From positions 2,431,001 through 2,495,000 of the forward strand of contig NZ_CP154630.1 in NCBI RefSeq assembly GCF_039555535.1: DNA of 64,000 nt, written 5' to 3'. This document shows, piece after piece, positions 16,713-57,623 of the stretch (its first letter is position 1; every line of letters starts with the position of its first letter). The DNA is from Stenotrophomonas maltophilia. GTDB lineage: Bacteria; Pseudomonadota; Gammaproteobacteria; Xanthomonadales; Xanthomonadaceae. A program made the position numbers and the translations under genes. The notes under the pieces are model-generated. The model was not told the DNA's origin. It saw only the letters and a list, made by a program, of their open reading frames with translations, and made no database searches.

Positions 16713-17222
16713 TCAGCGCTTGGTCCGCGAGGACCAGTGGATGTGGACGATCCGCCAGCCGTCCGCGGTCTCCTTCAGCACCATCGTCTCGTCGCTCTGG
16801 ACGGTCAGTGGCTGGCCGTCCTTCTGGGCATGCAACTCGCTTTCGGTTCCGACCCACGCGAACTCGCCAGCGGCTCGTGCGCGCTGACGGAGCAGCTGGC
16901 GATGGGCGCCCTTGAGGAACGCCGCATCGCTGACTGCGTGATGGCCCATGTATTCCTCGCGGCTGCGTTCGGCGCCCCCGGACTCGAGGATGAGAACGTC
17001 GGCAGCGAGCAGGGCTTCGACCGTGGCCAGATCGCCGCTAGACAGGGCCCTGTTGAAACGCTCCGCTACGGCGACCGCGGCCTCTGCAGTGACTGGGACG
17101 TCGACGTCCGCAGATGCCGCGGCAGCGGGGTGATGTGCGTGCGGCTGTGTCGCCTGCGCCATTGCGGGGGACACGACGGCCAGTGCCAGTGCGAGGGTGA
17201 ACGAGATTGCTGTTGCGTTCAT
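16713..17222 (-). CDS. Exported SnoaL/NTF2-like (DUF4440) protein in the copper operon
   Basis: 169 residues with a signal peptide (cut near AMAQA) and a His-containing linker (QPHAHHPAA). The SnoaL-like fold (about residues 50-165) has the usual pattern: helix VAERFNRALSSGDLATVEAL, strand VLILESGG, and the C-terminal DGWRIVHIHWSSR. No catalytic residues can be assigned. It lies between cytochrome c and DUF411 genes with spacers of 14-20 bases, so it belongs to the copper operon. Its task there is unknown. Confidence 0.75.
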   Translation of the reverse strand: MNATAISFTLALALAVVSPAMAQATQPHAHHPAAAASADVDVPVTAEAAVAVAERFNRALSSGDLATVEALLAADVLILESGGAERSREEYMGHHAVSDAAFLKGAHRQLLRQRARAAGEFAWVGTESELHAQKDGQPLTVQSDETMVLKETADGWRIVHIHWSSRTKR

Positions 17223-17241
17223 TGCGTGGGCTCCAAGAAGA

Positions 17242-18012: not shown

Positions 18013-18024
18013 TGTCAGTTCCCC

Positions 18025-27084: not shown

Positions 27085-27085
<1 letters not shown>
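26519..27085 (-). CDS. nudE: NUDIX hydrolase, NudE-like (ADP compounds hydrolase)
   Basis: 188 residues. The Nudix box is complete: GRMDPGESILEAANRELKEE followed by VGM (about residues 83-105), preceded by the NudE-type RYELGLPKG. NudE enzymes hydrolyse ADP-ribose, NADH and ApnA dinucleotides and so clear nucleotides that build up under stress. The start overlaps the groEL stop (TGATG), so it is the last, coupled gene of the stress cassette. Confidence 0.85.
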
Positions 27086-30893
<3,808 letters not shown>

Positions 30894-36724: not shown

Positions 36725-36748
36725 TCCCCCTCACACCCTCCGGATCCA

Positions 36749-39792: not shown

Positions 39793-42429
39793 TTAGGCAG
39801 CTTTTGGCCCTGTACGTAATGATTCCCTGCCGACCATCGACCAAAGCCCTGGACCCAATCGCTCTAAGCAACCTAGCTCTGCTGCGGCCATCTCACCAAG
39901 AGAGATGACCTTCTCTTTGATCATCTCGTCACTGAAGGCTACTTGCCCCCCCCTACTCTCGATGTGATCCCAAGTATTGGACAGCACATAGGCCTCGATC
40001 TCAGAATAGAGGTCGGATGGTGCCGCAACGCGCGAAAGTGACTCCAGCCGAGCCAGTAGATCAGGATGAGCTGAGTCGCCATCGAAGCCAAGCGTCTTCT
40101 TTACCGAGACCCACATCTGCGGCCATTCCCCTTTCGAAGCATGACTTCTGACTATCTCCTCGAGATCATCAAAACAGCCCGCAAACGTCCATAGTTCCCG
40201 GAAATGACCTGCCAGAAGTGAGCGCGCCCAGTCGCGAAGAGTCAAGTCATCACATGTCAGCACCGGTCGCAGCAAGTTCAAGAAGCCGATATACCACTCG
40301 AGCTCTTCGGCACGCGTTCGCGGCTGCCAGCCAGCATCACGTCTACGTGCACCGAAGTCGAACGCAGAGAAAGACGTCCAGTGCGTCGCTTCGAACGCAG
40401 CATGGAACAGCTCGGCTGCGATCTCGCGATGCCTCTCGGTGCCCGACTCGAGTAGCTTGCTGACAAACGCACACCGCCGTTCTGGTCGCGCCAGCGTACC
40501 TGACAGGTGCAACGAGAACAGATGCCGCATCTGTCCAACTATGCTGTCCCTGTTCTCACCTGACTTCTCGCCCTCGGAGAACTTCAGCATGACCGTCGCA
40601 GCACGATCAAACTTATCGTCGTCGTAAGCTAGCTGGTGCAGCAGGCGCACGAACAACCTGAAGTTTCGGTTCTCGCGCGAGGCAAAGCCTGGCTTGGTTG
40701 CGGCGTTCTCGATCAGCTGCAGCACGGTCTCCGGGAATACCGGCGCTATGTATAGCAATGCAGACAGCGTGCCTTCGTTACACGATCCAATATCATGCAG
40801 CGGTCCGCCGGGGCTCACCCAACTATTTGCCATCCGAACCGCAGGCTCGAAATCGTGCAGGTATCCCAGTCGATGCGCACATGAGACGAAAAGTCGGAGG
40901 TTCTCTGGCTTTAGCAGCTCGGCATTGATTGCATCGACAGGGATGTTCTCCAGCGCACGCTTCGCCAAACGATTGGCAAGTGCATGAGGAAGAACTGCTC
41001 TCCACTCACCACGACTCTGCGCGAGCTGACGACGCATCAACTCAGCCTGAGCCCGATGCAGACCACGACGATCGAGGCCAACGATGGCACTTAGGACGCC
41101 AAGCTCATCATTGAACTCGGACGAGGAGACATTGAAGGAATAGACGAGCGATAGCGCTTCAGCGCATTCCAGAAGTTCATTGGACGCTCCTTTTCGTTGA
41201 CTGAACAACCTATGGAAAAGGTCCTCGTCGGAGAAGTTTGTCAACGTCTCATCTGCATCTACCCGGCTGGCCAGCGCGATCGCGATGCGCGAATTGCCGC
41301 CGGAAAATTCGGCGATTTTGCCCGCGTTCAACTTCCCGATGTCTGGGTGCCGCCGCTGGATCAGCATCGAGACCGTCTCCTCGCTGCACGGCTCGAGGTG
41401 GATCACTTCGGTTTCCTCAGGACGATCGTCCGAGATGTCGTACTCGATTGTCAGAAGGCTGAGCATCGCGCTACTTGCGGAGACCTGCTTCTGCAACTGC
41501 CGATGCACGTCTGGCGGGCAGTTGTCCAGCACCAATTGAACCGCATGATCGTTAGCAACGATGTATGAAACTAGCTCGGATGCCGTCGGTGTCAAGTTCT
41601 CACCCAGGTCGGCGTAGATTGCGCTAGCTGGTGACAAGGCCTCCTCACCAACGTTCGCCTCAAACAGGGCCTGCGCGAATCGCGTCTTCCCCACTCCGGA
41701 GAGGCCGGTGATGCGCACCGCACTACCGCGGCGGCGCAACCGTTCTCGAGCTAGATGTATACCCTCAGAAACAGGCATAGGAGTCTTTGCGCTCGAGTTC
41801 GCGTCAATCACGCAGGGGTGGTCATCAACAAGGAATGCGTCGTTCTGGGCTGGGGGAGTAGCTGCCCACCTCCCGAAAGGCCTCCAGCCGGACAAGGGGC
41901 GGCCGAGGCGCGCACGAACCCACAGCGCAACGCTTGGATGCCGCCGTAGCCAAGTCGCCAATCGATCTCGACCATAAAAGTCAACGCGCAGAGACGCTTT
42001 TCCAGGAAGGGTCTCCGCGACCGCCTCCATCGCCCGCACTCGACTCGCCAACATGCTGTCTGAACAATCGTCCTTGCCACTAACGATAATGTAGGCACCA
42101 TTTCGATCGGCAAGATCTGCAAGTACGAGCTTTGGGGTGCCACCCTCCAACATCTCGTCCCTGCATGCCGCCGCACCCATAGCATGCTTCTTGACCTGGA
42201 AACCGCAGATCCCACGAGGAACAAAGCCGTCGTTGGACGGCAAGTCCATAGCCTCAATACGGACATCCAAACCGCCATCAGGTGCCTCCTGCGCACCTCC
42301 CCACATAACGCTCTTCGGCCGACGCCCCTGCTGGATTACCTCCGCTTCGCAAAGACGGGCAACCAATTCACGCAGATCGCCAGCACTGAGCGCTGTGATA
42401 TCTACAGCATCAAGTTCAAAAAATCTCAT
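39793..42429 (-). CDS. STAND-type NTPase with N-terminal restriction-endonuclease-like domain
   Basis: 878 residues. The N-terminal domain (about 1-190) shows a PD-(D/E)xK nuclease pattern: Asp51 and Asp55 in APDGGLDVRIE, and GFQVKK (Gln78, Lys80), as in Mrr-like enzymes. A P-loop NTPase of the STAND type follows (GLSGVGKTRFA, residues 242-252; Walker B near LVLDNCPP, about 300), and then about 450 helical residues that may form a sensor of TPR-like repeats. Such nuclease-STAND proteins (as in Avs systems) cut DNA on recognising a phage protein, but this one is shorter than Avs and not assigned. It lies 91 bases after jetD on the same strand. Confidence 0.72.
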   Translation of the reverse strand: MRFFELDAVDITALSAGDLRELVARLCEAEVIQQGRRPKSVMWGGAQEAPDGGLDVRIEAMDLPSNDGFVPRGICGFQVKKHAMGAAACRDEMLEGGTPKLVLADLADRNGAYIIVSGKDDCSDSMLASRVRAMEAVAETLPGKASLRVDFYGRDRLATWLRRHPSVALWVRARLGRPLSGWRPFGRWAATPPAQNDAFLVDDHPCVIDANSSAKTPMPVSEGIHLARERLRRRGSAVRITGLSGVGKTRFAQALFEANVGEEALSPASAIYADLGENLTPTASELVSYIVANDHAVQLVLDNCPPDVHRQLQKQVSASSAMLSLLTIEYDISDDRPEETEVIHLEPCSEETVSMLIQRRHPDIGKLNAGKIAEFSGGNSRIAIALASRVDADETLTNFSDEDLFHRLFSQRKGASNELLECAEALSLVYSFNVSSSEFNDELGVLSAIVGLDRRGLHRAQAELMRRQLAQSRGEWRAVLPHALANRLAKRALENIPVDAINAELLKPENLRLFVSCAHRLGYLHDFEPAVRMANSWVSPGGPLHDIGSCNEGTLSALLYIAPVFPETVLQLIENAATKPGFASRENRNFRLFVRLLHQLAYDDDKFDRAATVMLKFSEGEKSGENRDSIVGQMRHLFSLHLSGTLARPERRCAFVSKLLESGTERHREIAAELFHAAFEATHWTSFSAFDFGARRRDAGWQPRTRAEELEWYIGFLNLLRPVLTCDDLTLRDWARSLLAGHFRELWTFAGCFDDLEEIVRSHASKGEWPQMWVSVKKTLGFDGDSAHPDLLARLESLSRVAAPSDLYSEIEAYVLSNTWDHIESRGGQVAFSDEMIKEKVISLGEMAAAELGCLERLGPGLWSMVGRESLRTGPKAA

Positions 42430-42520: not shown

Positions 42521-43732
42521 CTAGGAGCCTGGAAACTGTGGAAGGAGAACCTCCTGCTCCAGCGTCCCCGGATGCGTTTCCACATGAATGGCCAAGTCAT
42601 TCCACCCGATGGATCGACAAGTTCGAGATATTGCGCTAGACACCGATTCAGCCGTTGGCTTGAGAGCGTAACCGAGACCAATGAGCTCCCTGGGATCCAT
42701 CAACCACGGCTTCAGGGTGAACCCCGCCTCGGCGGCAGATCCTGCGATGACGGCGCCAATTCTCATCCCCCCCTCATCCAAGTCGCCGAAATGAAACGCC
42801 TGAGTTGTCTGGCAAGGAAGTGATTTCAAGATCAGCATGTAGACCTGTCTCCAGGATGGGGACGGCATACCACCGGTATAGAGCAGCACGAGGCCGACTT
42901 GATCAGATGCAGCTTCAGCAAACTCATGGAATGTCTGTCGATTCTCTATGGTGAGAACACGCCAACTCAACACGGCTGGATTCGGCACGAATCCAGTGAT
43001 GTGGGCAGGAGCGAAGCCGAGATATGGATGAACCACTCCCACCACCGTAGTCGACGTAACAACCGTAAGCGGACCTGAGATCAGTACGGGCAATGGTTCC
43101 TTGTGCAGGCCTATGGCCGAGAAGACCTCGCTACTATCAAGTCCAGATGGTGCAATAGAGTTGAACCAAAGCAAATCGATCCATTTCACGATGCCCTCCA
43201 CTCGCTTGCTGTCACCAAACATCATGGCCGAAACCCGGCGCAACAGTTCGTCCCTGACGACACCTCGCCTTGCTGAAATGAGTCTGATTGCATCCAGTAT
43301 TTGCGCTACAGAAGCATCGGTAGCCTCTTGCCCGCGAACCTTATGGCCCAGCGACCAGCGCTCAATGACCTCGGTCAGTACGGGGAAAAGGCCGGTGTGA
43401 GTGTCCAGCATGGAACGGGCCTCTGATACGGAATCACGACGAAGTCGTGCGCCCAAGAAGTTCGCCAGCTTTGCGAGGTTCAGTACGGCAACGCCCGCAA
43501 CATCTAGAGGCGGCTGCACCATCACCTTGGCCTTGATTTCGATGGCTCCAGAGCGCTCAGCCAGTTCAAGTTCGGAACGAAACGCTCTTGCATCCTCGAT
43601 GCTGCGCAGGCTGAAGAACTCTGGGCATGATGACTCCGTCAGCCTGAGAGCTATTCGCTCATCCTTGCCACGACTCACTGCATTCTGGGAGCGATTGAAA
43701 ATTGACGTAAGGAAGGCCCGGGCTATAGTCAT
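42521..43732 (-). CDS. jetD: Wadjet nuclease subunit JetD
   Basis: 403 residues. The N-terminal arm (DUF3322-like) is followed by a TOPRIM-like DUF2220 domain with Glu in LTIENRQTFHEF and the Asp pair in FHFGDLDEGGMRIG. In Wadjet, JetD cuts small circular DNA such as plasmids once the JetABC SMC motor has extruded it. The ATG overlaps the jetC stop (ATGA). The catalytic residues are present, so the system is probably active. Confidence 0.88.
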   Translation of the reverse strand: MTIARAFLTSIFNRSQNAVSRGKDERIALRLTESSCPEFFSLRSIEDARAFRSELELAERSGAIEIKAKVMVQPPLDVAGVAVLNLAKLANFLGARLRRDSVSEARSMLDTHTGLFPVLTEVIERWSLGHKVRGQEATDASVAQILDAIRLISARRGVVRDELLRRVSAMMFGDSKRVEGIVKWIDLLWFNSIAPSGLDSSEVFSAIGLHKEPLPVLISGPLTVVTSTTVVGVVHPYLGFAPAHITGFVPNPAVLSWRVLTIENRQTFHEFAEAASDQVGLVLLYTGGMPSPSWRQVYMLILKSLPCQTTQAFHFGDLDEGGMRIGAVIAGSAAEAGFTLKPWLMDPRELIGLGYALKPTAESVSSAISRTCRSIGWNDLAIHVETHPGTLEQEVLLPQFPGS

Positions 43733-46700
43733 GCAACGACCCCTTCCCCATGGGGCATTCGACTTGCTTCAACACGCTTGAGCTCCTCCTCGAAAAGCTC
43801 GGGATGCTTGCGCCAGTTATCGGAATCCAGAATTACATGACCATCGTCATCAATGCGTACGTGTTTGATGGAGATAAGATCGTCGTCACGGTACATCTCG
43901 ATGTAGGTATCCACCGATTCGTTGATCTTACCCAAGGCATCGTCCGGTGCCGCGACGATGGGCTGAAGGCCCAATGCCTTCAGGTACTCAAAGACGGCAC
44001 GGGTATTCACTGAGTCAATCTTGTCACCCAACTCATCGAAAATTATCAGCGACATGCCGCCTTGATCACCGCGCAACTTTCCCAATGCGCGCGCCATCGA
44101 CGCTGCAGCAACGATGAAAAGAGGCGCGCGGTGCTCGCCCCCGGAACCCTTGTCCATGCGCTTTGAGAAGTCGGTCACCGTCACACCATTGCTGCGAACG
44201 TCAATCTCGAAGTTGAAGAAATTGCGATAGTCCTCCAGAAGCCTGTTGGCCTCTGCATCCTTTCCCTCAAGCATCGCCCTGAACTCAGGAGGAGCATCCA
44301 CCTGTCCAGAGAAGATATCCCCCTCCGGTCCCGCACCAGCCACCTTCAGTATGAATTTGTACAGCGACTCATGATCTTTATTGAGATTGGTGACGAAGTG
44401 ATACTTCTCGTTGTTCGAGAATGGCGGCAAGCGCTCCATCGTACTGTTCAGCTCATTGAGCGTGCTGCGCATGCTGGCGAAGTGGTCGCTCAGGCGGGCG
44501 GCGATCTGCACCTTGAACGTTTGCTCTGCCGCTTCTGCAGCTTCCGCGGAAAGCACTTGGTAGTGATGGAGCTCGGATTCCTCTAGCCGTTGCTTCTCCT
44601 GAGCCATCGTCTCGCACATGGCACCCAAGTCGCCCACCGCGATATCCATCTGCGGATCGAATTGGTTTGCGTATGTAGACATGTCACTTGCCAAGGCCTG
44701 CACCTGGGAAGACAGCTGATTGCCACTTCTAACCGTAGCGTCACTAATCTTCGCCACAATCGTATGCAGCGATAGGCCGGAACCATCAAACTCATCGCGT
44801 TTTGTTTCGAACCACTCATCACCCACGTATTCATTGCGGCGACTGAGAGCCGCCTTTGAGCAGATTCCGTTGGTTCTATCCGCAAGCTCGTCTAGCCGTC
44901 TCTGTGCTTGCCGGAAAGCCTCACCATGAGTTCCGACGTCTCTGCTGCTTTCTTCCAGCTTCGACTGTGCTGCCAGGGCAGCTCGCCTTGCCTCTGTGAT
45001 GAGCAGCTGACGAGCAAGGAGATCAGGTGCGCTTGCGATCTCTTGCATCGCCGCCTTTGCATCAAGCGCGGATTGCTCCTGAATGTGCGAGTTCAGCCAT
45101 CTTTCAATGTCCTGGATACGTCCTTCAAGTCCCACCAACTTCTCAAGGGCTTCAACCAACTGGCGCGACCGGTTCGCCTCCTGCTCGCATTCGGCTGCGT
45201 TCTGCCCCAAAGTGCTGCGCTGCTGCCGAAGCACCGCCAGGCGATGGCTCGCATCTTGGCGTCCCAACACCAGTTCCGTTGCAGACAAGGGGCGTCGACG
45301 GCCGAAATCAGCACGTCCAGCCTGCTCGCCAGTACGGGTGAAGCCCTCTGGGCTATCCGTGGTGACGCGCTCCAATCGCTCCAGCCGGCCGAGTCGAAGA
45401 CGGATATAGTCCACCGCCACTTGATTGTCACCCGCGATCAGGTGCGCGAGACCCATTGGCGGAACCACACCCATATCCGCCTTCGACTTCACCGGGTTCA
45501 CCAACAGTACTGAATCCGGCTTTGTATCCCACGGAATCTTGTTGAAAACGGACAAGGCATCCTCAAACTTGCCGCTACGGACAACCAGGGCAGTGCGCGA
45601 ACGACCAAGGAATCCCTCGATTACGGGTGCCCAGTCGGCATCTGTGACTGTAACCAAATCGCAGACGGGCGTGCACAGAAGTCCTTTGTCTCCAAGTATG
45701 TTCACAACTGCTTGGACGGCCGGCGGGAGTTCCGCTTTGCCTTCCTGGATGCGTTTGATCTGCTCGTTAGCGATCCTAAGTTCATTTCCAAGCTTGGACA
45801 GCCTCTGCTCGTCATGGTCTAGCTGACGCCGTGCCGACTGGATGATCGGAGCAACCCGCATGCTGGACTCGCGCAATGCTGCCGAGGCCTGCGAAACGTC
45901 AAGCACAAGCGCATCGGATACGGATGTACTGGAAACCGCATCAAGAAGCTCAACCCACGGCATCGCCAGATGCTGCCAGCCTCCGAGATCGGGTTTCACG
46001 CGGTTGGCCTTCTCGAAGCCCGCCACCACCTCGCGAATGGCCTGGGCCACGTTGGTTTTGATAGGTCTAAGTGATCTCTCTCGTTCGCTGGCCAGGTCAC
46101 GGGCGGCACTGATCGCCGGATCTGCTGCTGATTGAAGCTCTAGTTCGATGTACACGCCGTTGAGTCGATCATGCTCCGCCTTGGCGCTGTCGACTGCATT
46201 CTGCGCTGCCTGATGCCTGTCCCGCGCTTCATGCAGCGTAGTTTGTGCCGCATCAACAGCATCCATGTGTTGTTCACGCTCATAGTCATCCAACAGCGCC
46301 CTATAGGTCGCTGCGTGCATCCGAGTCTGAGTAGCCTTATGACCGGCTGCGATCAAGCTTTTGACGTTCTCAAGCCTGTCCAGTGTTTCCAGAACCTTGG
46401 CTTGAAGCGAGCGCAGATTGTCGAGCTGGGAGCGGAAGTTCTTGAGCTCGATAGGATAGGCATCGACAATGTAATTTCGAACAAAGCTGCTGGTGTCAGG
46501 AACTTTCTGCAGATTAAGCGCATTCTTCATCGCTCGCCGAAAAGCTCTCGGGTCGATGCTGCCCCCTCCTTTGGGGCGCAAGGCGAACAACATTGCTTCA
46601 ACCTGCTTCTCCGCCGACGGAGGCACTGCGAGCCTACCATTCACGCGACTGACTGCGTCCTCCATCAGCTTATTGAACGTTCCCCAGGCCAACGGCAAAA

Positions 46701-47148
46701 GTTCCGCCTCGGCGTTCGCTTCAAGATGATCATCTAACGCGAGCGCAACCCCTTGGACCACATAGCGCCCGTAGACGTGCAGCTTTGGGTCGCCCACTGA
46801 CGCGCCCAGGGCCAGGCCAACCGAAACCGGCGGCAATTCGCCCTCAGTGTCGCGAAACACCATGGTCAAATAGGACGTCGCATTCTCACGAATATGCTCG
46901 TCACCGCGATAGTAGCCGAGGCAGTATTCGCGCACTGAACGCCCTCGAGTGCCTGATACCCCCCCTGACTGCGCATTGAGATCGATTTGATTCTGATCCC
47001 CTCCGTACAAGACGATCTGCATCGCATCCAGAATCGCAGATTTTCCAGATCCGTTAGGCGCCACAATGCCTGTTGCAGGGCTAAAGCTCAGGGTTTCGGC
47101 ACGGAATAGGAAAAACTGTACCAAGTGAAATTTCTCAAGCAGATACAT
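43729..47148 (-). CDS. jetC: Wadjet SMC-like ATPase JetC
   Basis: 1139 residues of the MukB/SbcC-like type. The Walker A is APNGSGKSAILDA (near residue 35), long coiled coils (about 250-440 and 630-900) flank a hinge (about 480-600), and the C-terminal head has a signature GSGGEHRAPL and Walker B SLIIFDELGDKIDS. It forms the loop-extruding motor with JetA and JetB. The start at 47148 was chosen for its GGAGG at six bases; upstream ATGs at 47154 and 47169 are less well placed. It overlaps the jetB end by 14 bases. Confidence 0.9.
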   Translation of the reverse strand: MYLLEKFHLVQFFLFRAETLSFSPATGIVAPNGSGKSAILDAMQIVLYGGDQNQIDLNAQSGGVSGTRGRSVREYCLGYYRGDEHIRENATSYLTMVFRDTEGELPPVSVGLALGASVGDPKLHVYGRYVVQGVALALDDHLEANAEAELLPLAWGTFNKLMEDAVSRVNGRLAVPPSAEKQVEAMLFALRPKGGGSIDPRAFRRAMKNALNLQKVPDTSSFVRNYIVDAYPIELKNFRSQLDNLRSLQAKVLETLDRLENVKSLIAAGHKATQTRMHAATYRALLDDYEREQHMDAVDAAQTTLHEARDRHQAAQNAVDSAKAEHDRLNGVYIELELQSAADPAISAARDLASERERSLRPIKTNVAQAIREVVAGFEKANRVKPDLGGWQHLAMPWVELLDAVSSTSVSDALVLDVSQASAALRESSMRVAPIIQSARRQLDHDEQRLSKLGNELRIANEQIKRIQEGKAELPPAVQAVVNILGDKGLLCTPVCDLVTVTDADWAPVIEGFLGRSRTALVVRSGKFEDALSVFNKIPWDTKPDSVLLVNPVKSKADMGVVPPMGLAHLIAGDNQVAVDYIRLRLGRLERLERVTTDSPEGFTRTGEQAGRADFGRRRPLSATELVLGRQDASHRLAVLRQQRSTLGQNAAECEQEANRSRQLVEALEKLVGLEGRIQDIERWLNSHIQEQSALDAKAAMQEIASAPDLLARQLLITEARRAALAAQSKLEESSRDVGTHGEAFRQAQRRLDELADRTNGICSKAALSRRNEYVGDEWFETKRDEFDGSGLSLHTIVAKISDATVRSGNQLSSQVQALASDMSTYANQFDPQMDIAVGDLGAMCETMAQEKQRLEESELHHYQVLSAEAAEAAEQTFKVQIAARLSDHFASMRSTLNELNSTMERLPPFSNNEKYHFVTNLNKDHESLYKFILKVAGAGPEGDIFSGQVDAPPEFRAMLEGKDAEANRLLEDYRNFFNFEIDVRSNGVTVTDFSKRMDKGSGGEHRAPLFIVAAASMARALGKLRGDQGGMSLIIFDELGDKIDSVNTRAVFEYLKALGLQPIVAAPDDALGKINESVDTYIEMYRDDDLISIKHVRIDDDGHVILDSDNWRKHPELFEEELKRVEASRMPHGEGVVA

Positions 47149-47791
47149 CGCCATCCTCCGTGACTTCATTCATTGCGTCGAAAGTAGCCGCATCCCCCTC
47201 ACCTGCCACTTCCTTACGGAAGGATTCCAGATGGCTCAAGTATTCCTTCCGCAGCAGATCTCCGATCGCGGGATGGATGCGAACCTTCGCGAGCTGATTC
47301 CGTACATCGTCCTTGTCCTCAAAGGCAGCAATCCCCCAGCGCTTGAACTTGGTCATCAAAGAGCGGAAGTCCCCAGGCGAGGGAAAGTCCCTGCCCGTTT
47401 CCTTCTCGTAGTGCTCTTGCAAGTCAGGCAAATCGACGAAAGTTTCGCCATTTGGCTCTTCGCGCCCCTCGAAACGGACGCGATGATGAACGCCGGCGAG
47501 CACCAACAGCAGCAGGGTTTCGTCCTTGCTGGCTCGCTGTTGGGTCAGTACGTGCACGGGCCGCGCCACGATGTACTGGTAGTTGGTGTCGTGCAACAGC
47601 TCGATGCCAAGGGGACGAACTGCCTGCTCAAAGTCATTGATATTTCGGCTGACAATGCCGTAATCCTTCCGGGTCGCCCGGTCAGAGGCGGACAAGACCT
47701 GATGGGTTACTAGCCGATAGGCCGCCTGCTCGTAGTCCTGCTCTTCGTACATAGTGTCGCGGCTAAGCGCCTTTTCCCAGTGGCGTGCCAT
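47135..47791 (-). CDS. jetB: Wadjet subunit JetB (DUF4194)
   Basis: 218 residues of the MukE-like DUF4194 family (YEQAAYRLVTHQVLSASDRA, VARPVHVLTQQRASKDETLL, FMTKFKRWG-like helix in DFRSLMTKFKRWGIAAF). JetB bridges the kleisin JetA and the SMC protein JetC. Its ATG lies one base after the jetA stop, and its end overlaps jetC, so jetABCD is a tightly coupled operon. Confidence 0.88.
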   Translation of the reverse strand: MARHWEKALSRDTMYEEQDYEQAAYRLVTHQVLSASDRATRKDYGIVSRNINDFEQAVRPLGIELLHDTNYQYIVARPVHVLTQQRASKDETLLLLVLAGVHHRVRFEGREEPNGETFVDLPDLQEHYEKETGRDFPSPGDFRSLMTKFKRWGIAAFEDKDDVRNQLAKVRIHPAIGDLLRKEYLSHLESFRKEVAGEGDAATFDAMNEVTEDGDVSA

Positions 47792-47792
47792 G

Positions 47793-49214
47793 TCATTTCA
47801 CCTTGGTGATGTAGAAGTCCGGCATGTCCAAATACGGCCCGGCAATTCGTTCATCACCGGCGCTTTGGAAGCGATATCCAGGTAGTCGCTTTGAAATTCC
47901 TTCATGGTGCTTCTTTCCGAGGCCTGTCATTGCTTCCTGTGCGTAGGTGGACAGCGTCTGCACCATTCGAAATTGCTTGATACCGGTGATGGGAAGCTGA
48001 GACGCCCGGATCTGCCTACCTCCTCCCATGACACCCTGCAAGTACACCCTCACCTCTGTTGGCATGGCGGTACGCGCATCACGCGCACGCCTGTGCAGGT
48101 TCATCCGCGCCTCCTGCTCGGCTGTCATCTGCCGCGGAGAATCCGCGGTCCTGGGAATGGGCGGACGGGCGATGCGTGGTTGAAACAGGAGTTCACCGGA
48201 AAGCAATGCTCCGGGCCCAACGGGCATGGAGGCGTCGAAGTTCTCCGCAGCATTGACTCCGGCGATAGCCTTTTTGATCCGTCTCTCGAGCTGGCCCGGC
48301 GCGCGAAGCTGGTACTCGATCATGGCCAGCATGCGACGCTCGATATGGCGCTGATCCTGGCCCAAGCGATCGAAGTAGTCTTGCAGACGATAGACATTGC
48401 TCAATCGCCTGATCGCCTTCTCATAGACAGCCTCAGCCGTGCCTTTATCACCTTTGTAGCGTCGCTCGGCCAACCACACGATGATCCGTTCCCGATGATC
48501 CCCGTAATGGATTTCCTGAGTTAGGCTCAACACCTGCGCCTTTCGTGCGAGGGGGTGATCGGCGCCAGCCAAGTCCGCATAGTCAGCCATGACGTGCTTG
48601 GAAATGTAGTCTTCAAACAACCGACGGATAGCCGCCCCGGGGGTCGCGGACTTGAATATCTCGCGCTGCAGGGTACGCACGTTCAGACTCATGGCGGCAA
48701 TCCCGGACAGAAGCGCATGGGCGCTGTCGCCGGCGTTTACGAAGTCGTCACCGTAGACATTGCTTGCAGGATCAAGCACCCGACGTAATGTGTCTTCAAT
48801 GGAACGCATCTTCGCGCCCACCATCGCCGGCGTGTCTTCTGTGAAGACCTGCAAGGTGGCAAGGAAACGGCTTACCACAGCAGTCATGGACAGAGTGCGC
48901 GTGAGTCCCACCTGCTCTTCTTCGAACCAGCCATTCTCCGTGAGATGGCTCAAGTACATGTTGGCGCGAATGTTGAGCGGAGTGAGCTGGCCTACCCCCT
49001 CTTCTGCCTGCCAAGCGTCATCGTGTTCGAGGTAGTTCTCGATGAACTGCGTCAACTGCCGCCGTTCCCAGCCGGTCGCCGGGGGAACCTCAGCCTCTGG
49101 CCCGAAGAATTCTTCGTACAGACCCAAGAGCAGCCGCCAGTAGTTCTCCCGATTTGCCGAGGCCAATGGGCGAAAGAGTTGCGATGGCAGTACCTCAAAC
49201 AGAGAGCTGGACAC
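47793..49214 (-). CDS. jetA: Wadjet kleisin subunit JetA (DUF3375)
   Basis: 473 residues of the DUF3375 family (MukF-like kleisin) that defines type I Wadjet. The N terminus has a winged-helix region (about 10-110), the middle is helical with a helix-rich neck, and the C terminus holds the conserved MPDFYITK end. It is the first gene of jetABCD and is divergent from a WYL-type regulator across a 118-base region with operator-like repeats. Confidence 0.88.
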   Translation of the reverse strand: MSSSLFEVLPSQLFRPLASANRENYWRLLLGLYEEFFGPEAEVPPATGWERRQLTQFIENYLEHDDAWQAEEGVGQLTPLNIRANMYLSHLTENGWFEEEQVGLTRTLSMTAVVSRFLATLQVFTEDTPAMVGAKMRSIEDTLRRVLDPASNVYGDDFVNAGDSAHALLSGIAAMSLNVRTLQREIFKSATPGAAIRRLFEDYISKHVMADYADLAGADHPLARKAQVLSLTQEIHYGDHRERIIVWLAERRYKGDKGTAEAVYEKAIRRLSNVYRLQDYFDRLGQDQRHIERRMLAMIEYQLRAPGQLERRIKKAIAGVNAAENFDASMPVGPGALLSGELLFQPRIARPPIPRTADSPRQMTAEQEARMNLHRRARDARTAMPTEVRVYLQGVMGGGRQIRASQLPITGIKQFRMVQTLSTYAQEAMTGLGKKHHEGISKRLPGYRFQSAGDERIAGPYLDMPDFYITKVK

Positions 49215-49332: not shown

Positions 49333-50190
49333 ATGCCCCGCCCCCGCCCCAATCCAAACAAAAGTCCGGAAACACTTCGAGCCATCGAAACGCTGCTCCT
49401 CTGGGAGGGGCAAGTCACCAATGAGCGAGTACGCCAAGTGTTTGATCTGCATATCACCACGGTAAGTCGATTGCTAACCCAATATGCTGAACTCAATGGA
49501 GGCGGCCTTGAGTACCGAAGCCATGTGCGCGGATACGTGGCGATGTCTGGCTTCAGACCCCTCCTAACCGAAGGGCTGATCGAAGAGTACCTTGCGTTTG
49601 AGCGCCCCCAGGAAGCTACAGGCTTTATCGAGAGCTCCCAGCTTATCCTCGGCGGCGTTGAACGACGCCACTTCGCACTGCTTAATCGTGCCTGCAGAGA
49701 GGGCAAGGGGCTCGTTGGCGAGCACCGGTCCATGCGCAACCCAGCACCTCGCACCAAACGACTGTTCCCTCATGCGCTGGTGCAGGCAGGCAGGCGCTGG
49801 CATGTTCGCGCATTTGTCATCGCCGAGGACGAGGCGGAAGCCGGACGCTTCCTGGACCTGTCTATAAATCGGCTGAGCGGCTTGAAACAGCTGGCTGATC
49901 CTCGGCCAGAGCGGGCCGAGCCTAGCCAGGACGCCGCCTGGCAGACACAGGTAGAGCTGTCGATCGTCCCCCATCCGCATCTGACACCAGATCAGAAGGA
50001 TATGGTGCGTATCGAGTATTTCGGAGGTAAGGCAGCCTACAGGTTAAGAACCCGTGCCGCACTACTCCAATACCGACTACATGAACTGCGCTGCGCCACC
50101 GATGCAGAGAAGGAGCCGCCGAACGAATTTCACCTCTGCGTCGACGATCCAACCGCGATCCAACCGTGGCTATTTGGCGAGCTGAATTAG
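49333..50190 (+). CDS. WYL-domain transcriptional regulator (BrxR/CapW-like)
   Basis: 285 residues. A winged helix-turn-helix (about residues 12-75: ALLLWEGQVTNERVRQVFDL-like region with TVSRLLTQYAELNG) is followed by a WYL fold (about 120-200: LFPHALVQAGRRWHVRAFVI, then FLDLSINRLSGL) and a C-terminal dimerisation domain. BrxR and CapW proteins repress defence operons and are thought to sense a nucleic-acid or nucleotide ligand through WYL. It faces jetA with shared operator repeats, so it probably controls Wadjet, and it reads towards the hydrolase-caspase genes. Confidence 0.82.
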   Translation: MPRPRPNPNKSPETLRAIETLLLWEGQVTNERVRQVFDLHITTVSRLLTQYAELNGGGLEYRSHVRGYVAMSGFRPLLTEGLIEEYLAFERPQEATGFIESSQLILGGVERRHFALLNRACREGKGLVGEHRSMRNPAPRTKRLFPHALVQAGRRWHVRAFVIAEDEAEAGRFLDLSINRLSGLKQLADPRPERAEPSQDAAWQTQVELSIVPHPHLTPDQKDMVRIEYFGGKAAYRLRTRAALLQYRLHELRCATDAEKEPPNEFHLCVDDPTAIQPWLFGELN

Positions 50191-50543: not shown

Positions 50544-52109
50544 ATGGGCAGTCTGCATCAAATCCACAGTCGCAACGGCCGTATCGGTGCCGGAACCGAT
50601 ACGAAGCCAGAGGATATCGACGCTATCGTCACGGCGCTTCGTAAGGACGGGCGTGGTCATTTGCTGCTTTACTTTCACGGGGGCCTGGTCGACAAGGCCG
50701 CGGGTATCGGTATTGCCCAGCGACTTGAGGGGCGCTTTTCTCAATCGGCCTATCCGGTTTTTTCCGTGTGGGAGTCGGGTTTCGTTGAAACGATCCGCAA
50801 CAACCTGCGCGAGCTGCCGGATGAGCCGGTATTCAAGAATCTGGTGCGCAAGGCGCTAGAGTACGCGCTCCGCCGCTTGGGAGGTAGCAACGGCGCCCGG
50901 ACCATCACGCCGGGCAACGTCGATGCAGGGAAGGTCCGCCAGGCAGTTGATACATATTGGAGCGATCCCAGTCGCAATCACGTGCCCTACCGTGATTTCA
51001 AACCTGTAGTGGGGCCCTCAGGTGCGCGTGCGGCGAGTGCGCTGATCGACGACGCCGAGATCGAAGCCGACTTGCAAACCGACAGCGAGTTTGTGGTCGC
51101 CATGCAAACCCTGCCAACCGCGTTAGACGAAGCACGCGATGCATTCATCGGGGGCGGAGCGAGCGTTCGAGATACCCCGTTCTCGCAGGCGGTATCAACG
51201 CAGGTCGCCGGGGTCGAGGGAGGCCGCGGGTTGATCGTCTGGTTCAAAGTTTCCCTTCTGGTGAAGCGCATCCTGCAGGGTGTTCTGCGTCGGTACGCGG
51301 ATCAACGCGATCACGGCCTGTATGCAACGGTCGTAGAGGAAGTGTTGCGTGGTGTTCATTTTGGTGGCAGTGGACTCAATGAATGGGGCAAGGCACTCCA
51401 GTGGAACCGCATGAAGCAGGACTCACTCGATGCGTTCGGCGACGGCTCCGACCTGTATGCCGGAACTGCGCTGCTGGAGCGGCTGCGTGCCGCCCATGCC
51501 TCTGAAGGGCTGCTATCGAGGATCACTCTAGTCGGCCACAGCACTGGCGCCGTCTACATCGCCAATTGGCTTGACAAGGCATCAGAGCTTCTGCCGGCCG
51601 AGATTGCATTCGACGTCGTGTTCCTGGCGCCCGCCATCACCTACGAGCGCTTTGCCGCCACGATCACCCAACATGGCGATCGCATCCGTCACTTCCGCTT
51701 GTTTGGCATGCGCGATGAATTCGAACGGGACGATCAGGTCGTCGGAGACGACTCTAAATTTCCCAATGGGCAGGACTGGAAGCGCTTCATCTATCCCAGC
51801 TCCCTCCTCTATCTGGTGTCGGGTGTCCTCGAATCGCGCCCAAATTCCGACGGAACGCTCGTCGACGAACCGGACATGCCGCTGCTGGGCATGGAACGCT
51901 TCTTCGCTTGGCACCACATCTACTCAGATAGCAAGTTTCCCGAAATAGGTGCAGTCCGCGCGTGGCTCGGAGCTGCACCGAACCGTACGATCTGGTCCAA
52001 GTCCCAAGGACAGACAGCAGGCTTGAACAGCACAAGCATTGATCACGGAGCTTTCGACGACGACGAAGATACGCTGCTCAGCGTTGAGAGCCTCCTCGGC
52101 GGATGGTGA
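50544..52109 (+). CDS. Alpha/beta-hydrolase (lipase/esterase-like) paired with a caspase
   Basis: 521 residues. The alpha/beta-hydrolase core is visible: a strand into an HGG oxyanion loop (LLLYFHGGL, residues 40-48), the nucleophile elbow GHSTG (Ser333) after strand SRITLVG, a probable acid near LFGMRDEF, and a candidate His in FAWHHIYSD. About 250 residues between the first strands and the elbow are an unusual insert or lid with helices. No signal peptide. The caspase gene follows 57 bases later. The substrate may be lipid or protein ester; this is inference. Confidence 0.65.
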   Translation: MGSLHQIHSRNGRIGAGTDTKPEDIDAIVTALRKDGRGHLLLYFHGGLVDKAAGIGIAQRLEGRFSQSAYPVFSVWESGFVETIRNNLRELPDEPVFKNLVRKALEYALRRLGGSNGARTITPGNVDAGKVRQAVDTYWSDPSRNHVPYRDFKPVVGPSGARAASALIDDAEIEADLQTDSEFVVAMQTLPTALDEARDAFIGGGASVRDTPFSQAVSTQVAGVEGGRGLIVWFKVSLLVKRILQGVLRRYADQRDHGLYATVVEEVLRGVHFGGSGLNEWGKALQWNRMKQDSLDAFGDGSDLYAGTALLERLRAAHASEGLLSRITLVGHSTGAVYIANWLDKASELLPAEIAFDVVFLAPAITYERFAATITQHGDRIRHFRLFGMRDEFERDDQVVGDDSKFPNGQDWKRFIYPSSLLYLVSGVLESRPNSDGTLVDEPDMPLLGMERFFAWHHIYSDSKFPEIGAVRAWLGAAPNRTIWSKSQGQTAGLNSTSIDHGAFDDDEDTLLSVESLLGGW

Positions 52110-52166
52110 CATCTTCGAGAGCACGCCAAAGGTGCCCTTGTGTACGCAACAGGGAGAGATGTGGAC

Positions 52167-54923
52167 ATGCCGCGAGATGATCACTACGCGATCGTGCTGA
52201 CAATTAACCGTTATCCCGGCCTGAGTGACCTCCATGGACCTGAGAACGATGGCGAAGAGTTCCGGCAATGGCTCCTCGATCCGGAGTACGGCGACCTGGA
52301 CACCCGACGTATCCAAGTCATACGGTCGCAGGATTATGGCGTGGCAGCGACCCCGGACGACGCAAACCCGACCGAGAAGGAGCTCAAGAAGGCGCTTAAT
52401 CTATGGCTGCGCACCCCGAACGGATGGCATGACCGCATTGGACAGCGCTTGTATCTGTTCTTCGCCGGACACGGGTTCACAGCCGGTTCGGCGATTCACG
52501 ACCCGGCACTATTCTCGGCCGTCGCGCAAAACGGCGACACGGCGCATATCGCCGTCCTGCGTTATGCGTCGAAAATCGCCAACGCGGGTTTCTTTGATGA
52601 AATCATCCTGGTAACGGACTGCTGCCAGGACGTACTCAAGGCGAGCCAGGTGCTCGAGCCGACTTGGACCCCGCCGGACCGGCAACGAACGGCACACGTC
52701 CGATTGTTCCAGGCGTATGGAGCGCCGCGGGGACGTCAGTCCTTTGAGCGCAACATTGGCCCGGCCGGGCAGTCTCGCGGCCTGTTCACTAGCGTCCTAC
52801 TGGACGCGCTGCGCAGCGCACCGCCTGACGCCGACGGATGGGTGACGGATCGCGCCGTCGCGGACTACTTCCAGGTGCTATGGGCCGATCGCTACGAACA
52901 GGAAACCGGATACACGCCACCACTGACTCCCGCAACGAAGCGGATTCGAATATATCAGCGCCCGGCGTCGGCGCCAGCTTCCGCGCTCCCACGCCGGGTT
53001 GCCGTCGACCTGAGCCGCATCATTGCTAAATTCGCGGCCATCGACCGGCAACCGGATCCTGACATCTCACCTTACCCACCCGCGCCGCCCACCGACATGA
53101 CGCCAAATGGGCAGCTACGCAGTAGCCAGCTTCGCCAGCTCGAGCATCCCATCGTGGAGCTGACCCCGGGTCTGCATCTCGTCGTTACACCAGGGAATCT
53201 ACCCGACGTCGCCTTCGAGGTTCCCTACCCGGTGCTGCCAGCTGCAGGCAACACCCCTCCCGTTGCTGCACCTATCGACATGCCCGCTTTGCGAACCGAC
53301 GAGGTTGCAGCGCAGCCGGTGGTGTTGAGGACGGACAATCCCAACGCGCAGATCACGGTGCTCGATGCTAGCTACGCTCGTGTCAGCATCGGTACGGGAG
53401 TGGTCTCGCTGTCCTTAGCTCCGGGACTCTACAAAGCCCTGGTGCACGTCGGGGCCGAATCGGCGCAATCGCTGTTCGTTGTTGCGGATGCGCCCCTCGA
53501 CCAGCGGTTGCCCGGGCCCGAATTTTCCGCGGCTGCGCCCGTCATCGGCACGTCAACCACGCACCAAAATCAGTCCCTTCATGCCGCTGAATACTCGATG
53601 ATTCCGACGGAGCCAAGCCGCGATCTCAGCGAAATCGGTGAGGTCTTTGTCTTCGCGCGCGACTCCAGTTTCAGTCCCGACGGCTCTCTAAACCCCGCGC
53701 CACCGTGGCGGCAGTGGCACCTCAGTTCCCTTGTAGGGGCAACCTTGGAGGAGCGCCTCATCCACAGTGGTACGGACGACAGGCTCGGCTACGCCTACCT
53801 CAAATTAGCAGCAACAGCTGGCAGCCTCGCACTGCGAACGGCCAGCCCTTGGGACGAGTCGAATGAAGACGGACTGGTCGTCCCGGTGATTAAGGGGTGG
53901 CGTACCGAGATCTACCTTGACTGTACCTCAGCTCCGCCAACCCCTCCGATGGTGGACACTCAGGGCGCACGAATGCTCGACTTGGCGACTGCCTCCATCC
54001 ATCTGGTCCGGATGGGAAGTGCGTCACTGCTGTTCGATCCGATCGGGCTTGCGACGGAGGCGGCGCGAGCGCAGCTTACAGTCGGCCGGGAGGTGGCGGT
54101 GCCATCAACCGAGCAAGCAATGGCCAGCCCGATGTGGGCCTTGTACGCGGCCCTCGCTGCCTTCCAGCGGGGCGGGCAGCACATCGATACCGTTGGACAA
54201 TGCGTTGCAGCCGTTCCTAAGGAAATCAGGGAGGGTCTATCCGATTTTGCGGTGCTCGCGCAATGGCTAGGCCTATCGAACGTGGCCCATCCGCTCCGTA
54301 ACCCACCCGCGCTGGCGGCCTCATGGAGCCTTGCCTCAAAGCTGGAGGCGCGAGGCGGACTGGCCTCCGAACTGTTCGAGGAGATCGGCCAATGGCGGTC
54401 CGGTGGGAGTCTATGGACTCTCTGGCAGCGTTCAGTTGATGACCGCTGGTTGTTGCGAAATCGGCTTTCTGACCAGGCTATGGGCACTCTGAAGGGTAAT
54501 GCACAGGGGATTGACGACGCGGCAACCCCGCAAGTGCTCGCCCCCGCCTGGTCACTGGACACCTGGGTTCCGGTCGAAGACGGCCTGAGGTGTCCTAATC
54601 CCACCCATAGCCCCTTCCAGCAAGCACTCCGTCGGCGTCTTCTGGATGCGCTGGCTGAGCGCCACACCGATGCCGACAGCGGCGCCTTCACCACTGTGTC
54701 GCTGCCACCCGAGTCCGATGTCTTCGCCTTGGCAGCGGAGCTCATGCTGTCGCCGATATACGCCATGGCCGCCTATAGCAAGCTGTATGCGGAAGCCCGC
54801 CGCCAATCCGACCTGGGCCCTCTCATCGAGTGGGTAACGGTGAACGGAGATGAACCCGACCCAGACTCGACAGCCACCAAGTCGAAGCGCAGCACTCACC
54901 TGCAATCAATGGACGACTACTGA
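52167..54923 (+). CDS. Caspase-family (peptidase C14) protein, 918 aa
   Basis: Residues about 5-260 form a caspase-like domain: YAIVLTINRYPGLSDLHGPE, the catalytic His102 in LYLFFAGHGFT and the Cys pair 152-153 in ILVTDCCQDV (Cys153 is the likely nucleophile). The remaining 650 residues have a Pro-rich linker (about 290-330), beta-rich segments and a helical C terminus, and resemble nothing I know; they may sense a signal. The ATG at 52167 has GGGAGAG eight bases upstream and is preferred to the GTG at 52140. It is linked to the hydrolase gene, which may be its substrate or partner. Confidence 0.75.
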   Translation: MPRDDHYAIVLTINRYPGLSDLHGPENDGEEFRQWLLDPEYGDLDTRRIQVIRSQDYGVAATPDDANPTEKELKKALNLWLRTPNGWHDRIGQRLYLFFAGHGFTAGSAIHDPALFSAVAQNGDTAHIAVLRYASKIANAGFFDEIILVTDCCQDVLKASQVLEPTWTPPDRQRTAHVRLFQAYGAPRGRQSFERNIGPAGQSRGLFTSVLLDALRSAPPDADGWVTDRAVADYFQVLWADRYEQETGYTPPLTPATKRIRIYQRPASAPASALPRRVAVDLSRIIAKFAAIDRQPDPDISPYPPAPPTDMTPNGQLRSSQLRQLEHPIVELTPGLHLVVTPGNLPDVAFEVPYPVLPAAGNTPPVAAPIDMPALRTDEVAAQPVVLRTDNPNAQITVLDASYARVSIGTGVVSLSLAPGLYKALVHVGAESAQSLFVVADAPLDQRLPGPEFSAAAPVIGTSTTHQNQSLHAAEYSMIPTEPSRDLSEIGEVFVFARDSSFSPDGSLNPAPPWRQWHLSSLVGATLEERLIHSGTDDRLGYAYLKLAATAGSLALRTASPWDESNEDGLVVPVIKGWRTEIYLDCTSAPPTPPMVDTQGARMLDLATASIHLVRMGSASLLFDPIGLATEAARAQLTVGREVAVPSTEQAMASPMWALYAALAAFQRGGQHIDTVGQCVAAVPKEIREGLSDFAVLAQWLGLSNVAHPLRNPPALAASWSLASKLEARGGLASELFEEIGQWRSGGSLWTLWQRSVDDRWLLRNRLSDQAMGTLKGNAQGIDDAATPQVLAPAWSLDTWVPVEDGLRCPNPTHSPFQQALRRRLLDALAERHTDADSGAFTTVSLPPESDVFALAAELMLSPIYAMAAYSKLYAEARRQSDLGPLIEWVTVNGDEPDPDSTATKSKRSTHLQSMDDY

Positions 54924-55196: not shown

Positions 55197-55682
55197 ATGC
55201 CGGTAAGCGCCAATCTCGCCTACGACCTTCTCAAGACCGTGAGCAAACTGGAATTCCAGCTCCGACGGCACGGGGACTTCTTCCGGAAAGACCGGACGGG
55301 GCAACCGACGTCCGACGTGGCTTGGCGCAAGGTGCAAGAGCGCGTCCGAAAGTTGGGCGACGATTTCGCGTCAGAGGTTCCTGAGTCGGCGCGTGCGCGC
55401 CTTCTCTGTCAACGCGATGAGCGCCCCATGAAGCAGATGATTATTGAAGAGAACGGGAACTTGGTGGCCCGCTTTTGCCCCTGCCCATTGGATGCCGAAT
55501 CGGATGCGGTCGCGCTGGTGGAAGCCATGCGGCAAGTCCGCAACAACCTCTTCCATGGTGGCAAAGAAGATTCGGAAGTGGATCCGTACGAAGAAGACAA
55601 CGATTGGGTCTACGCCGCGACGCAGGTTGCGATTGCTCTCCAGCATGCGTTGTCTAACGGACGGCTCGACAATCGCGAATGA
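55197..55682 (+). CDS. Small HEPN-like protein with R-X4-H motif
   Basis: 161 residues, helical, with Arg115-N-N-L-F-His120 (RNNLFHGGKE) after the helix VALVEAMRQV. R-X4-6-H in this setting is the catalytic motif of HEPN ribonucleases found in toxin-antitoxin, abortive infection and CRISPR effectors. No obvious antitoxin neighbour. It follows the caspase gene after 273 bases with no recognised element in between, so it may be separate or a third component. Confidence 0.55.
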   Translation: MPVSANLAYDLLKTVSKLEFQLRRHGDFFRKDRTGQPTSDVAWRKVQERVRKLGDDFASEVPESARARLLCQRDERPMKQMIIEENGNLVARFCPCPLDAESDAVALVEAMRQVRNNLFHGGKEDSEVDPYEEDNDWVYAATQVAIALQHALSNGRLDNRE

Positions 55683-56549: not shown

Positions 56550-57623
56550 CTATAGCGAGCGGCTAATAGTGAAGCTTCCGAACACCGGCGACTGGCGCTG
56601 GCCATAGAACTCCCGGGTGCTGTGGTAACGCGCCATTGCGAATCTCCAGCGCCCGCGCATCACCGCGATGCCGTAGCCGCCTTGGGCGACCACGTGGCGC
56701 TTGTCCACGCTGTGGCTGTTGCGGAAGGTATTGCCGTCCAGAGTGATGTCGCGGATTACCCATGCCGCGTCGGTGGTCGCAAACAAGTGCCAGGACCAGC
56801 CGCTGAGGCGGCCACCACGGGTCGGCGCGGTGTTCTCGCCGGCCGGGCGCAGCGGCGTGCTGCCGAAGTCGTCGGGCAGCTTCCAGCCGAAGCGCACTTC
56901 GCCACCGGCGTTGGCCTTGGTTTCCAGGTTGCCGATCGCACCGCCATAGTGACTGATCGCATCCCAGCCCCAGCCGCCGGCATTGACACTGGCATCGGCC
57001 GGCCAGCGGCGCATGCGCTCGTGGGTCAGCATGAACACCGGCTCGTTGTGCAGCTGGTTGTCCCAACCCTTGAACTTCTCGTCCCCTAGCGCGTCGTGCA
57101 CGGCGTTCTGCACCTGCCTGCCCTGGGCCCAGGGCCCGACCACGCCCACGGCCAGCTGGGTGGTCTGCAGGCGGTCGCCGCTGCGTGCGTTGAAGCCGAA
57201 GCTGGCCAGCAGCACGCCGGCATACGGCCGGTCATCCTCGATCAGGTCGCGGCGGGTCGGGTCGGTGGGGGTGAAGATGGCCTGGCCGATGCTGAAGATC
57301 ATGTTCTGCTGCTCGAACCTGCCGGGGTGCAGGCCTTCCAGGTACTGGTTCACCCAGCGCGCCATGCGCGGCAGGCACGGGTCGGCGGTGTAGTCGACCA
57401 GGTTCGGCGAGACCAGGGTCAGCTGCGCGCCGTTGGTATAGCCCTGGTCTTGGTGGCGGCCACCGAACAGGTCGTTGTCGACGCGGAAGCTGATCTGCGG
57501 CGGGTGATCGCGCATCGCGTCCGGGCCACATTGTTCGGCCGCCTGGGCCACCGGGGCTCGGGCAGCGGCCAGGAACACGAGTGCCGCCATCACAGACAAC
57601 CGACTAAGCGCCAGTCTTTTCAT
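56550..57623 (-). CDS. LpxR-like outer-membrane protein (DUF2219, lipid A deacylase family)
   Basis: 357 residues with a signal peptide (cut near AQAAEQ). The mature N terminus has the DUF2219 signature SFRVDNDLFGG with the Asn-Asp pair and DQGYTNGAQLTL with the conserved Thr. The rest is a beta barrel ending in FGSFTISRSL. LpxR removes the 3-prime acyloxyacyl group from lipid A in Salmonella; many members of the family are untested. Activity here is plausible but not shown. Confidence 0.8.
   Translation of the reverse strand: MKRLALSRLSVMAALVFLAAARAPVAQAAEQCGPDAMRDHPPQISFRVDNDLFGGRHQDQGYTNGAQLTLVSPNLVDYTADPCLPRMARWVNQYLEGLHPGRFEQQNMIFSIGQAIFTPTDPTRRDLIEDDRPYAGVLLASFGFNARSGDRLQTTQLAVGVVGPWAQGRQVQNAVHDALGDEKFKGWDNQLHNEPVFMLTHERMRRWPADASVNAGGWGWDAISHYGGAIGNLETKANAGGEVRFGWKLPDDFGSTPLRPAGENTAPTRGGRLSGWSWHLFATTDAAWVIRDITLDGNTFRNSHSVDKRHVVAQGGYGIAVMRGRWRFAMARYHSTREFYGQRQSPVFGSFTISRSL

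Follow-up and report, generated by a model that had tools for sequence, protein, structure and literature searches.

We analysed a 64,000-nucleotide stretch of the Stenotrophomonas maltophilia contig NZ_CP154630.1 (positions 2,431,001 to 2,495,000, hereafter the window), in which an initial annotation had marked an alpha/beta-hydrolase gene and a caspase-like protease gene as a candidate new defence system. The gene pair itself was as described. The open reading frame (ORF) list and translation gave a hydrolase with GHSTG around Ser333 and, 57 bases further on the same strand, a 918-residue protein with a His-Cys caspase dyad, whose C-terminal part is called X below (Table 1). An alternative in-frame GTG at 52140 (+) would extend the second ORF to 927 amino acids (aa; 52140-54923); the 918-aa start is the form held in the protein database (P0121), and it yields the His102/Cys153 numbering and the 57-base gap.

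Table 1 Features of the hydrolase-caspase locus and of its surroundings (positions in the window)
Feature	Position	Strand	Description and basis
Alpha/beta-hydrolase	50544..52109	+	521 aa; triad Ser333-Asp391-His501; HGG at residues 45-47; motifs, family alignment and weak Pfam match
Hydrolase residues 112-232	50877..51239	+	Poorly conserved insertion with near-invariant R119, R162, R198 and R228; putative gate that the caspase would cut
Codon of nucleophile Ser333 (GHSTG)	51540..51542	+	Sequence and alignment
Caspase-X fusion protein	52167..54923	+	918 aa, from the ATG at 52167
Caspase domain (Peptidase_C14)	52167..52967	+	His102 in GHG, Cys153 in DCCQD; Pfam, profiles and alignment
X region	53283..54740	+	Separate gene in deeper branches; its start weakly resembles an Ig-like/gingipain C-terminal domain
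WYL-domain regulator	49333..50190	+	About 350 bases upstream of the hydrolase; Pfam, PADLOC
161-aa ORF	55197..55682	+	In the island; RNNLFH motif (R-x4-H, HEPN-like by eye)
Type I Wadjet jetABCD	42521..49214	-	PADLOC (JetA, JetB, JetC, JetD) and Pfam; context
PD-Lambda-4_A homologue	39793..42429	-	PADLOC; context

Nineteen ORFs of the window were scanned with Pfam, and matches were reported up to E 0.1. The caspase protein matched Peptidase_C14 at E 9.3e-08 (32.5 bits, cut-off 21.4), which places it in the caspase superfamily, and it also matched the PADLOC 'caspase' model (E 5.2e-10). The Pfam match of the hydrolase was weak (Abhydrolase_6, E 0.00098, 20.3 bits, below the cut-off of 26.3), and we assign it mostly from its motifs and the family alignment. 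These predict a member of the alpha/beta-hydrolase superfamily, with the GxSxG nucleophile followed by Asp and His in that order, and HGG is presumably the oxyanion-type motif.

As judged from the alignments, both active sites are strictly conserved and intact. His102, Asp151, Cys153 and Asp155 of the caspase were kept in 47/47 aligned caspases, and the His-Cys dyad was present in 32 of the 33 caspase rows taken from the loci, the remaining row being truncated. Among 115 database hydrolases of over 480 residues (the window's own included), Asp391 was kept in all and Ser333 and His501 in 114, the sole exception (P0112) having lost Ser and His together. The 31 hydrolase rows from the loci gave 31 for Ser, 31 for His and 30 for Asp; the locus rows used here and in the arginine counts below include L005-L010, which are close relatives overlapping the database set, and the near-duplicates L021/L022 and L103/L107.

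The hydrolase and the caspase are partners in a conserved hydrolase-caspase-X cassette that is inherited together across distant bacteria. The search of genome contigs gave 29 loci with a hydrolase relative, and in 23/23 of those with a full-length or nearly full-length hydrolase (L002-L024, among them three near-identical Stenotrophomonas loci and the near-duplicates L021/L022) the caspase came next on the same strand. X followed in 22 of the 23, the contig of L011 ending inside the caspase. The order of hydrolase, caspase and third gene was the same at a further locus from the phylum search (L087) and in 7/7 full-length hydrolase matches on rhizobial plasmids (L101-L107), where the X profile gave no match to the third gene of L103 and matched that of L107 only weakly, at E 0.29. 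We take the hosts to include Proteobacteria, Chlorobi, Verrucomicrobia, Chloroflexi, Planctomycetota and Bacteroidota. Within the genus, 5 of 91 Stenotrophomonas genomes have the caspase-X family, and the full-length hydrolase is present in exactly these five. In 17/17 further cassette genomes a single contig carries the caspase-X matches, apart from one stray caspase (G849:C135). Among genomes beyond the genus, a full-length relative turned up in 0/369 of the class and 1/398 of the phylum (at most 4 and at most 3 candidates scored per genome, respectively), which makes the cassette rare in these groups.

The partnership was also seen in the protein database, where the best 8000 candidates were scored in each search and 120 of the 633 hydrolases found and 48 caspases were listed. 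The exact longest-contig size was shared with one of the 120 listed hydrolases by 23 of the 48 caspase entries; 0.26 was expected by chance, and the maximum in 500 simulations was 2. Pairwise distances between hydrolases and between caspases were then compared over 48 operons, leaving out L001-L004, L097, L011, L022 and L107 as duplicates or truncated and L103 because X was unseen by the profile. The correlation was r = 0.972 (0/2000 permutations as high, permutation maximum 0.344), and over the same operons it was 0.781 for hydrolase and X and 0.770 for caspase and X. This shows that the hydrolase-caspase-X unit travels whole. Chance pairing of the two genes in this island was rejected on the gene order in all full-length loci, the database co-occurrence, this correlation and the occurrence in the same five genomes, and thus the partnership proposed by the initial annotation is borne out.

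The C-terminal region of about 650 residues, described earlier as having no recognised domain, indeed gave zero Pfam matches up to E 0.1, and comparison of the loci carries the description further. X is a distinct conserved subunit: the window's branch has it joined to the caspase, and deeper branches (L012-L024, L087 and the rhizobia) encode it in a gene of its own. The window protein extends 60 residues beyond the X profile, and among the loci measured tails of more than 250 residues were present only in L017 and L024. An Ig-like fold as in the Canu system (see below) was looked for, and the X profile showed a weak match (E 5.3e-04) to the C-terminal domain of gingipain R2. Searching proteins with this profile yielded 7 matches, mostly near one rhizobial sequence and none with a listed extra domain.

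In some relatives, further modules are joined to X. A full-length GroEL is joined to X in L017 (1.3e-217 to bacterial chaperonin) and a full-length PNPase is joined in P0157, 48% identical over 690 residues to stand-alone PNPase, and the extra module is S1 alone in P0154 and P0168 and CHAT in P0126. L024 carries TIR-CHAT with an ATPase stretch slightly below the cut-off; L101 has trypsin with a PLD module, and L105 trypsin with a non-specific endonuclease module. A pYEATS module was found in L102, L103 and L106, being assigned to X by position in L103. The modules on X are exchangeable, and those of the TIR, CHAT, trypsin, nuclease and PLD kinds are typical of conflict systems.

A second PNPase gene lies in the window itself at 28689-30893 (-), left of the island and overlapping a GroEL gene (27085-28719), and another PNPase is located at G000:C1:1535430. 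These free-standing genes beside the island were considered as the source of the X-fused modules and rejected, the identities being only 60% for GroEL and 48% for PNPase. The GroEL/PNPase segment had no match of at least 300 bases in the examined stretches of G063 and G089. That GroEL and PNPase occur both near the island and fused to X in relatives may be a coincidence or a theme.

The hydrolase contains an insertion that could serve as a gate. Counting the sequences that could be read, caspase-linked hydrolases had 263-300 residues from HGG to GHSxG and five papain-type ones had 119-131; rows reading 26, 27, 78 or None were motif misreads or unread and were excluded. Mean conservation was 0.56 in residues 112-232 and 0.69 elsewhere in the hydrolase. 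Within this stretch R119, R162, R198 and R228 were kept in 108, 109, 113 and 112 of the 115 database hydrolases, and the same positions were Arg or Lys in 27, 16, 17 and 28 of 28 caspase-linked locus rows (six of them close relatives). Analysis of R-S dipeptides in the insertion gave 3.34 per sequence against 0.95 in shuffled sequences; outside the insertion they occurred at 0.22 per 100 residues. Of the columns conserved at 93% or above, Arg accounted for 4/11 in the insertion and 14/127 elsewhere (Fisher p = 0.038). The three caspase-less relatives have arginine at none of the four positions, position 119 being lysine. In metacaspases the Asp at C-2 contributes to the basic P1 pocket, and cleavage after Arg would agree with this. 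Together these results are suggestive of a proteolytic activation of the hydrolase through the arginines of the insertion.

More widely, this hydrolase type is repeatedly tied to a cysteine protease. Distant hydrolases of the same type lie within single proteins with papain-like proteases (for example L025, L086, L088 and L091-L094), the L088 protein also having GH19 above the cut-off, and in L085 one chain combines the hydrolase type with a muramidase and with a papain match below the cut-off. Single-chain amidase-hydrolase-caspase proteins with Amidase_2 were found at L084:4106-6928 and L089:7707-10574; with their peptidoglycan amidase, these two may be self-contained lysis devices. An exception, present in three Stenotrophomonas genomes (L081-L083), is a relative of 474 aa that lacks part of the arginine-bearing segment, and caspase and X matches were absent from the 18-kb stretches around it and from those genomes (G034, G039 and G015).

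The window's own cassette sits in a defence island, as the initial annotation had stated, with type I Wadjet and PD-Lambda-4_A identified by PADLOC. The defence setting is real but it represents one event, namely a recently moved, near-identical island in five Stenotrophomonas species. Window positions 39838-64000 were 99.98-100% identical in G063 and G089, the identity over positions 40544-62106 was 99.5% for L002 and 99.99% for L004, and an extra LpxR gene (56550-57623) was identical in all five cassette genomes, besides an 82-94% identical copy elsewhere. A phage-type integrase and a Tn3-family transposase (two ORFs, DUF4158 and DDE_Tnp_Tn3) lie at 35435-39741, beside position 39838, where the identity breaks off sharply; a Tn3 element flanked by inverted repeats within 34500-58500 was looked for and rejected, as no convincing repeat pair was found. 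The WYL-domain gene is a possible regulator of the island and at most a candidate member of the cassette. The motif of the 161-aa ORF is one that we take, by eye, to be typical of HEPN ribonucleases; the ORF gave no Pfam match and has weak relatives on Rhizobium plasmids. It was rejected as a third cassette component, as it matched only beside the Stenotrophomonas copies of the cassette. Left of the island, positions 3370-21158 carry RND efflux, heavy-metal P-type ATPase, multicopper oxidase and CopB genes, which form a copper/metal resistance cargo.

Among the listed neighbours of the relatives, signs of an association with defence were only scattered. We surveyed 111 of 127 picked ORFs around 20 other loci as raw counts of matches. 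PADLOC gave scattered matches to 45 families, and among the 25 listed all but one hit a single ORF; they included AbiEii, helicase-type DpdE/ZorD, mads_3, subtilase and phospholipase, the subtilase match lying at L006, with 9 other picked neighbours without a match. Among the 25 of 103 Pfam families listed, the neighbours were ordinary, such as glutamate synthase, DNA polymerase III, Hsp90 and LysR regulators. Homologues in such housekeeping surroundings were what the initial annotation had named as speaking against its proposal, and the generality of the defence setting is therefore not supported.

Several known systems come close to the cassette. In bacterial gasdermin-caspase systems the protease is thought to switch on a membrane-damaging partner; there was no gasdermin match in the scanned window ORFs, and the partner in the cassette is an enzyme with a complete triad. 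The closest description of a caspase beside an alpha/beta-hydrolase comes from the VMAP systems. VMAP-linked caspases are stated always to have a neighbouring alpha/beta-hydrolase gene, the two being taken to operate together, and GAP1-N1 systems are noted to combine a related hydrolase with caspase or trypsin (Kaur et al. 2020, PMC7159879); for alpha/beta-hydrolase effectors, hydrolysis of membrane lipids has been predicted (PMC8195603). As in the window, the hydrolase gene adjoins the caspase in VMAP ternary systems, the hydrolases being likened by description. But the window cassette was rejected as a VMAP member, because VMAP-C, MoxR and vWA were unseen and X was unlike one VMAP-C protein. 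The VMAP-C domain was absent from the window protein (Pfam, E 0.1) and from the window's genome, and it was above the cut-off in 1/18 cassette genomes with a weak match in one more; across 149 genomes from the phylum of G849 neither VMAP-C nor the control profiles gave a match. Comparison of X with one VMAP-C protein gave an hhalign probability of 0.3%, and the MoxR ATPase and vWA, which VMAP systems hold in strict order, had no match among the 19 window ORFs.

The Canu system (CanA, a caspase with an Ig-like fold; CanB; and CanC, a gated MBL nuclease) offers a precedent for gating. There the caspase activates a gated pro-nuclease, other gated enzyme classes are considered possible, and protease co-evolution and insertions blocking the active site are named as hallmarks for finding gated effectors (Tuck et al. 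2025, PMC12799240). Canu and the cassette are alike in that a caspase is in an operon with an enzyme bearing insertions and conserved candidate cut residues, and in that each has a further conserved component. They differ in the effector, which is an MBL nuclease in Canu and an alpha/beta-hydrolase in the cassette (no MBL match among the 19 window ORFs by Pfam), and in the candidate cut residues, which are glycines in Canu and arginines in the cassette; X is at most a putative counterpart of CanB, and anti-phage activity has been shown for Canu but is a prediction for the cassette. EACC1 caspases carry many exchangeable domains, and effector deployment by auto-proteolysis has been proposed for them (PMC7159879). 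The EACC1 'system 4' resembles the cassette in its caspase with many exchangeable C-terminal domains, but its 5' gene is a transmembrane EACC1 where the cassette has the hydrolase, and the NCBIfam model caspase_w_EACC1 matched at 29 bits against a cut-off of 140. A literature search over titles and abstract openings, with most subscription papers outside its coverage, gave no paper on a hydrolase-caspase-X cassette. The adjacency of caspase and alpha/beta-hydrolase is already in print for VMAP, which qualifies the novelty proposed in the initial annotation.

We tentatively interpret the unit as an effector cassette that is gated by a protease, acts in the cytoplasm and belongs with the prokaryotic conflict systems, and we put the probability of this reading, mechanism included, at roughly 0.47. 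X, here fused to the caspase, would be the hub that senses or oligomerises. Once triggered, the caspase would cut the hydrolase in its arginine-bearing insertion, so that activation is presumed to run from protease to hydrolase with the conserved arginines as putative cut sites. The cut hydrolase would release an esterase or lipase activity, possibly on lipid, that harms the cell's own membrane or metabolism. The cell would die or stop growing, most likely as a response to phages or other mobile elements, and in some relatives further effector or sensor modules joined to X would take part. In favour of this reading are the strict partnership and co-inheritance of the genes, the intact active sites, the single-chain fusions with cysteine proteases, the mobile near-identical island with Wadjet, the module types on X and the Canu precedent. 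The activation step, already proposed in the initial annotation, has circumstantial support from the conserved arginines in a variable insertion and from Canu.

Several observations weigh against this interpretation. The column-wise enrichment of arginine is modest, and the arginines may be structural. The caspase-less L081-L083 keep an HGG-GHSxG spacing of 255, so the length of the insertion is not peculiar to caspase partners, and this caspase-less control consists of three closely related sequences. In the single-chain caspase fusions L084 and L089 the insertion is largely missing, with 25-31 residues separating the profile blocks on either side. In the window hydrolase R119, R162, R198 and R228 are followed by T, A, D and G, while S is usual at the first three. 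The basic cut specificity read from the Asp at C-2 is carried over from metacaspases, and a covering of the active site by the insertion is conjectural. The distance correlation is partly plain shared ancestry, no hydrolase relatives were found in the viral contigs or phage records searched, and the mostly ordinary neighbours of the relatives, among the matches listed, count against guilt by association.

Other readings of the same loci were weighed. The two enzymes could be parallel effectors or processors, the caspase mainly cutting itself, X, an X-fused module or cellular proteins, with the hydrolase no substrate. GroEL, PNPase, trypsin-nuclease and trypsin-PLD do sit C-terminal to the caspase or a caspase-linked protein, as if released by cutting, auto-proteolytic deployment of effectors has been proposed for the EACC1 system (PMC7159879), and the single-chain hydrolase-caspase proteins are without the proposed gate. 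Yet the window protein and most measured relatives have no long releasable tail and still have the hydrolase at each locus, and the hydrolase tracks the caspase at r = 0.97 and X at 0.78, so we regard this account as doubtful. It is unlikely that the cassette is a stress-response or protein quality-control device without an immune purpose, in which X, joined to GroEL or PNPase, detects damage to protein or RNA while protease and hydrolase remodel the cell. Such a role would suit the full-length chaperonin and PNPase modules, the ordinary neighbourhoods of the relatives and the stress and metal genes on the window's left side, but the sporadic distribution (5/91 genus genomes) is typical of conflict systems, and movement on a defence island and the TIR-CHAT, nuclease and PLD modules speak against it.

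A toxin cassette directed at rival bacteria or used for lysis, with the enzymes acting outside the producer or in a target cell, was considered as well. In its favour, this hydrolase type occurs in single chains that also contain papain or caspase together with Amidase_2, GH19 or muramidase (the muramidase-linked papain being sub-threshold), and lysozyme and peptidoglycan-binding genes lie upstream in two rhizobial plasmid loci, one of which has an annotated DUF2235 gene. We consider it quite improbable, as fusions with GroEL, PNPase, TIR and ATPase-like modules suggest a cytoplasmic location, the scanned neighbouring window ORFs include no cell-wall enzyme, and a signal peptide is not obvious by eye in the window's hydrolase or caspase-X.

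A more specific idea, which we also think unlikely, is a caspase-lipase immune switch in which X has acquired copies of essential cellular machines, GroEL or PNPase with its S1 domain, to serve as integrated baits. A phage protein taking hold of the chaperonin or the RNA exonuclease would contact the bait as well, the caspase would fire and the gated hydrolase would be unleashed. If true, this would be a bacterial counterpart of the integrated decoys of plants, and the first case known to us of a lipase gated by a protease in prokaryotic immunity. Among bacterial effectors, gating by proteolysis is established for pro-nucleases and is also known from gasdermins. Under the protease-gated reading that we prefer, the cassette shows the co-evolution with a protease that is a hallmark of gated effectors and hints, at sequence level, at a blocking insertion, here with a lipase-like effector. 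The noted pairing of caspase and alpha/beta-hydrolase thereby becomes a defined three-part unit with named residues, and the whole housekeeping proteins GroEL and PNPase on X provide a concrete route to asking how such systems sense infection.

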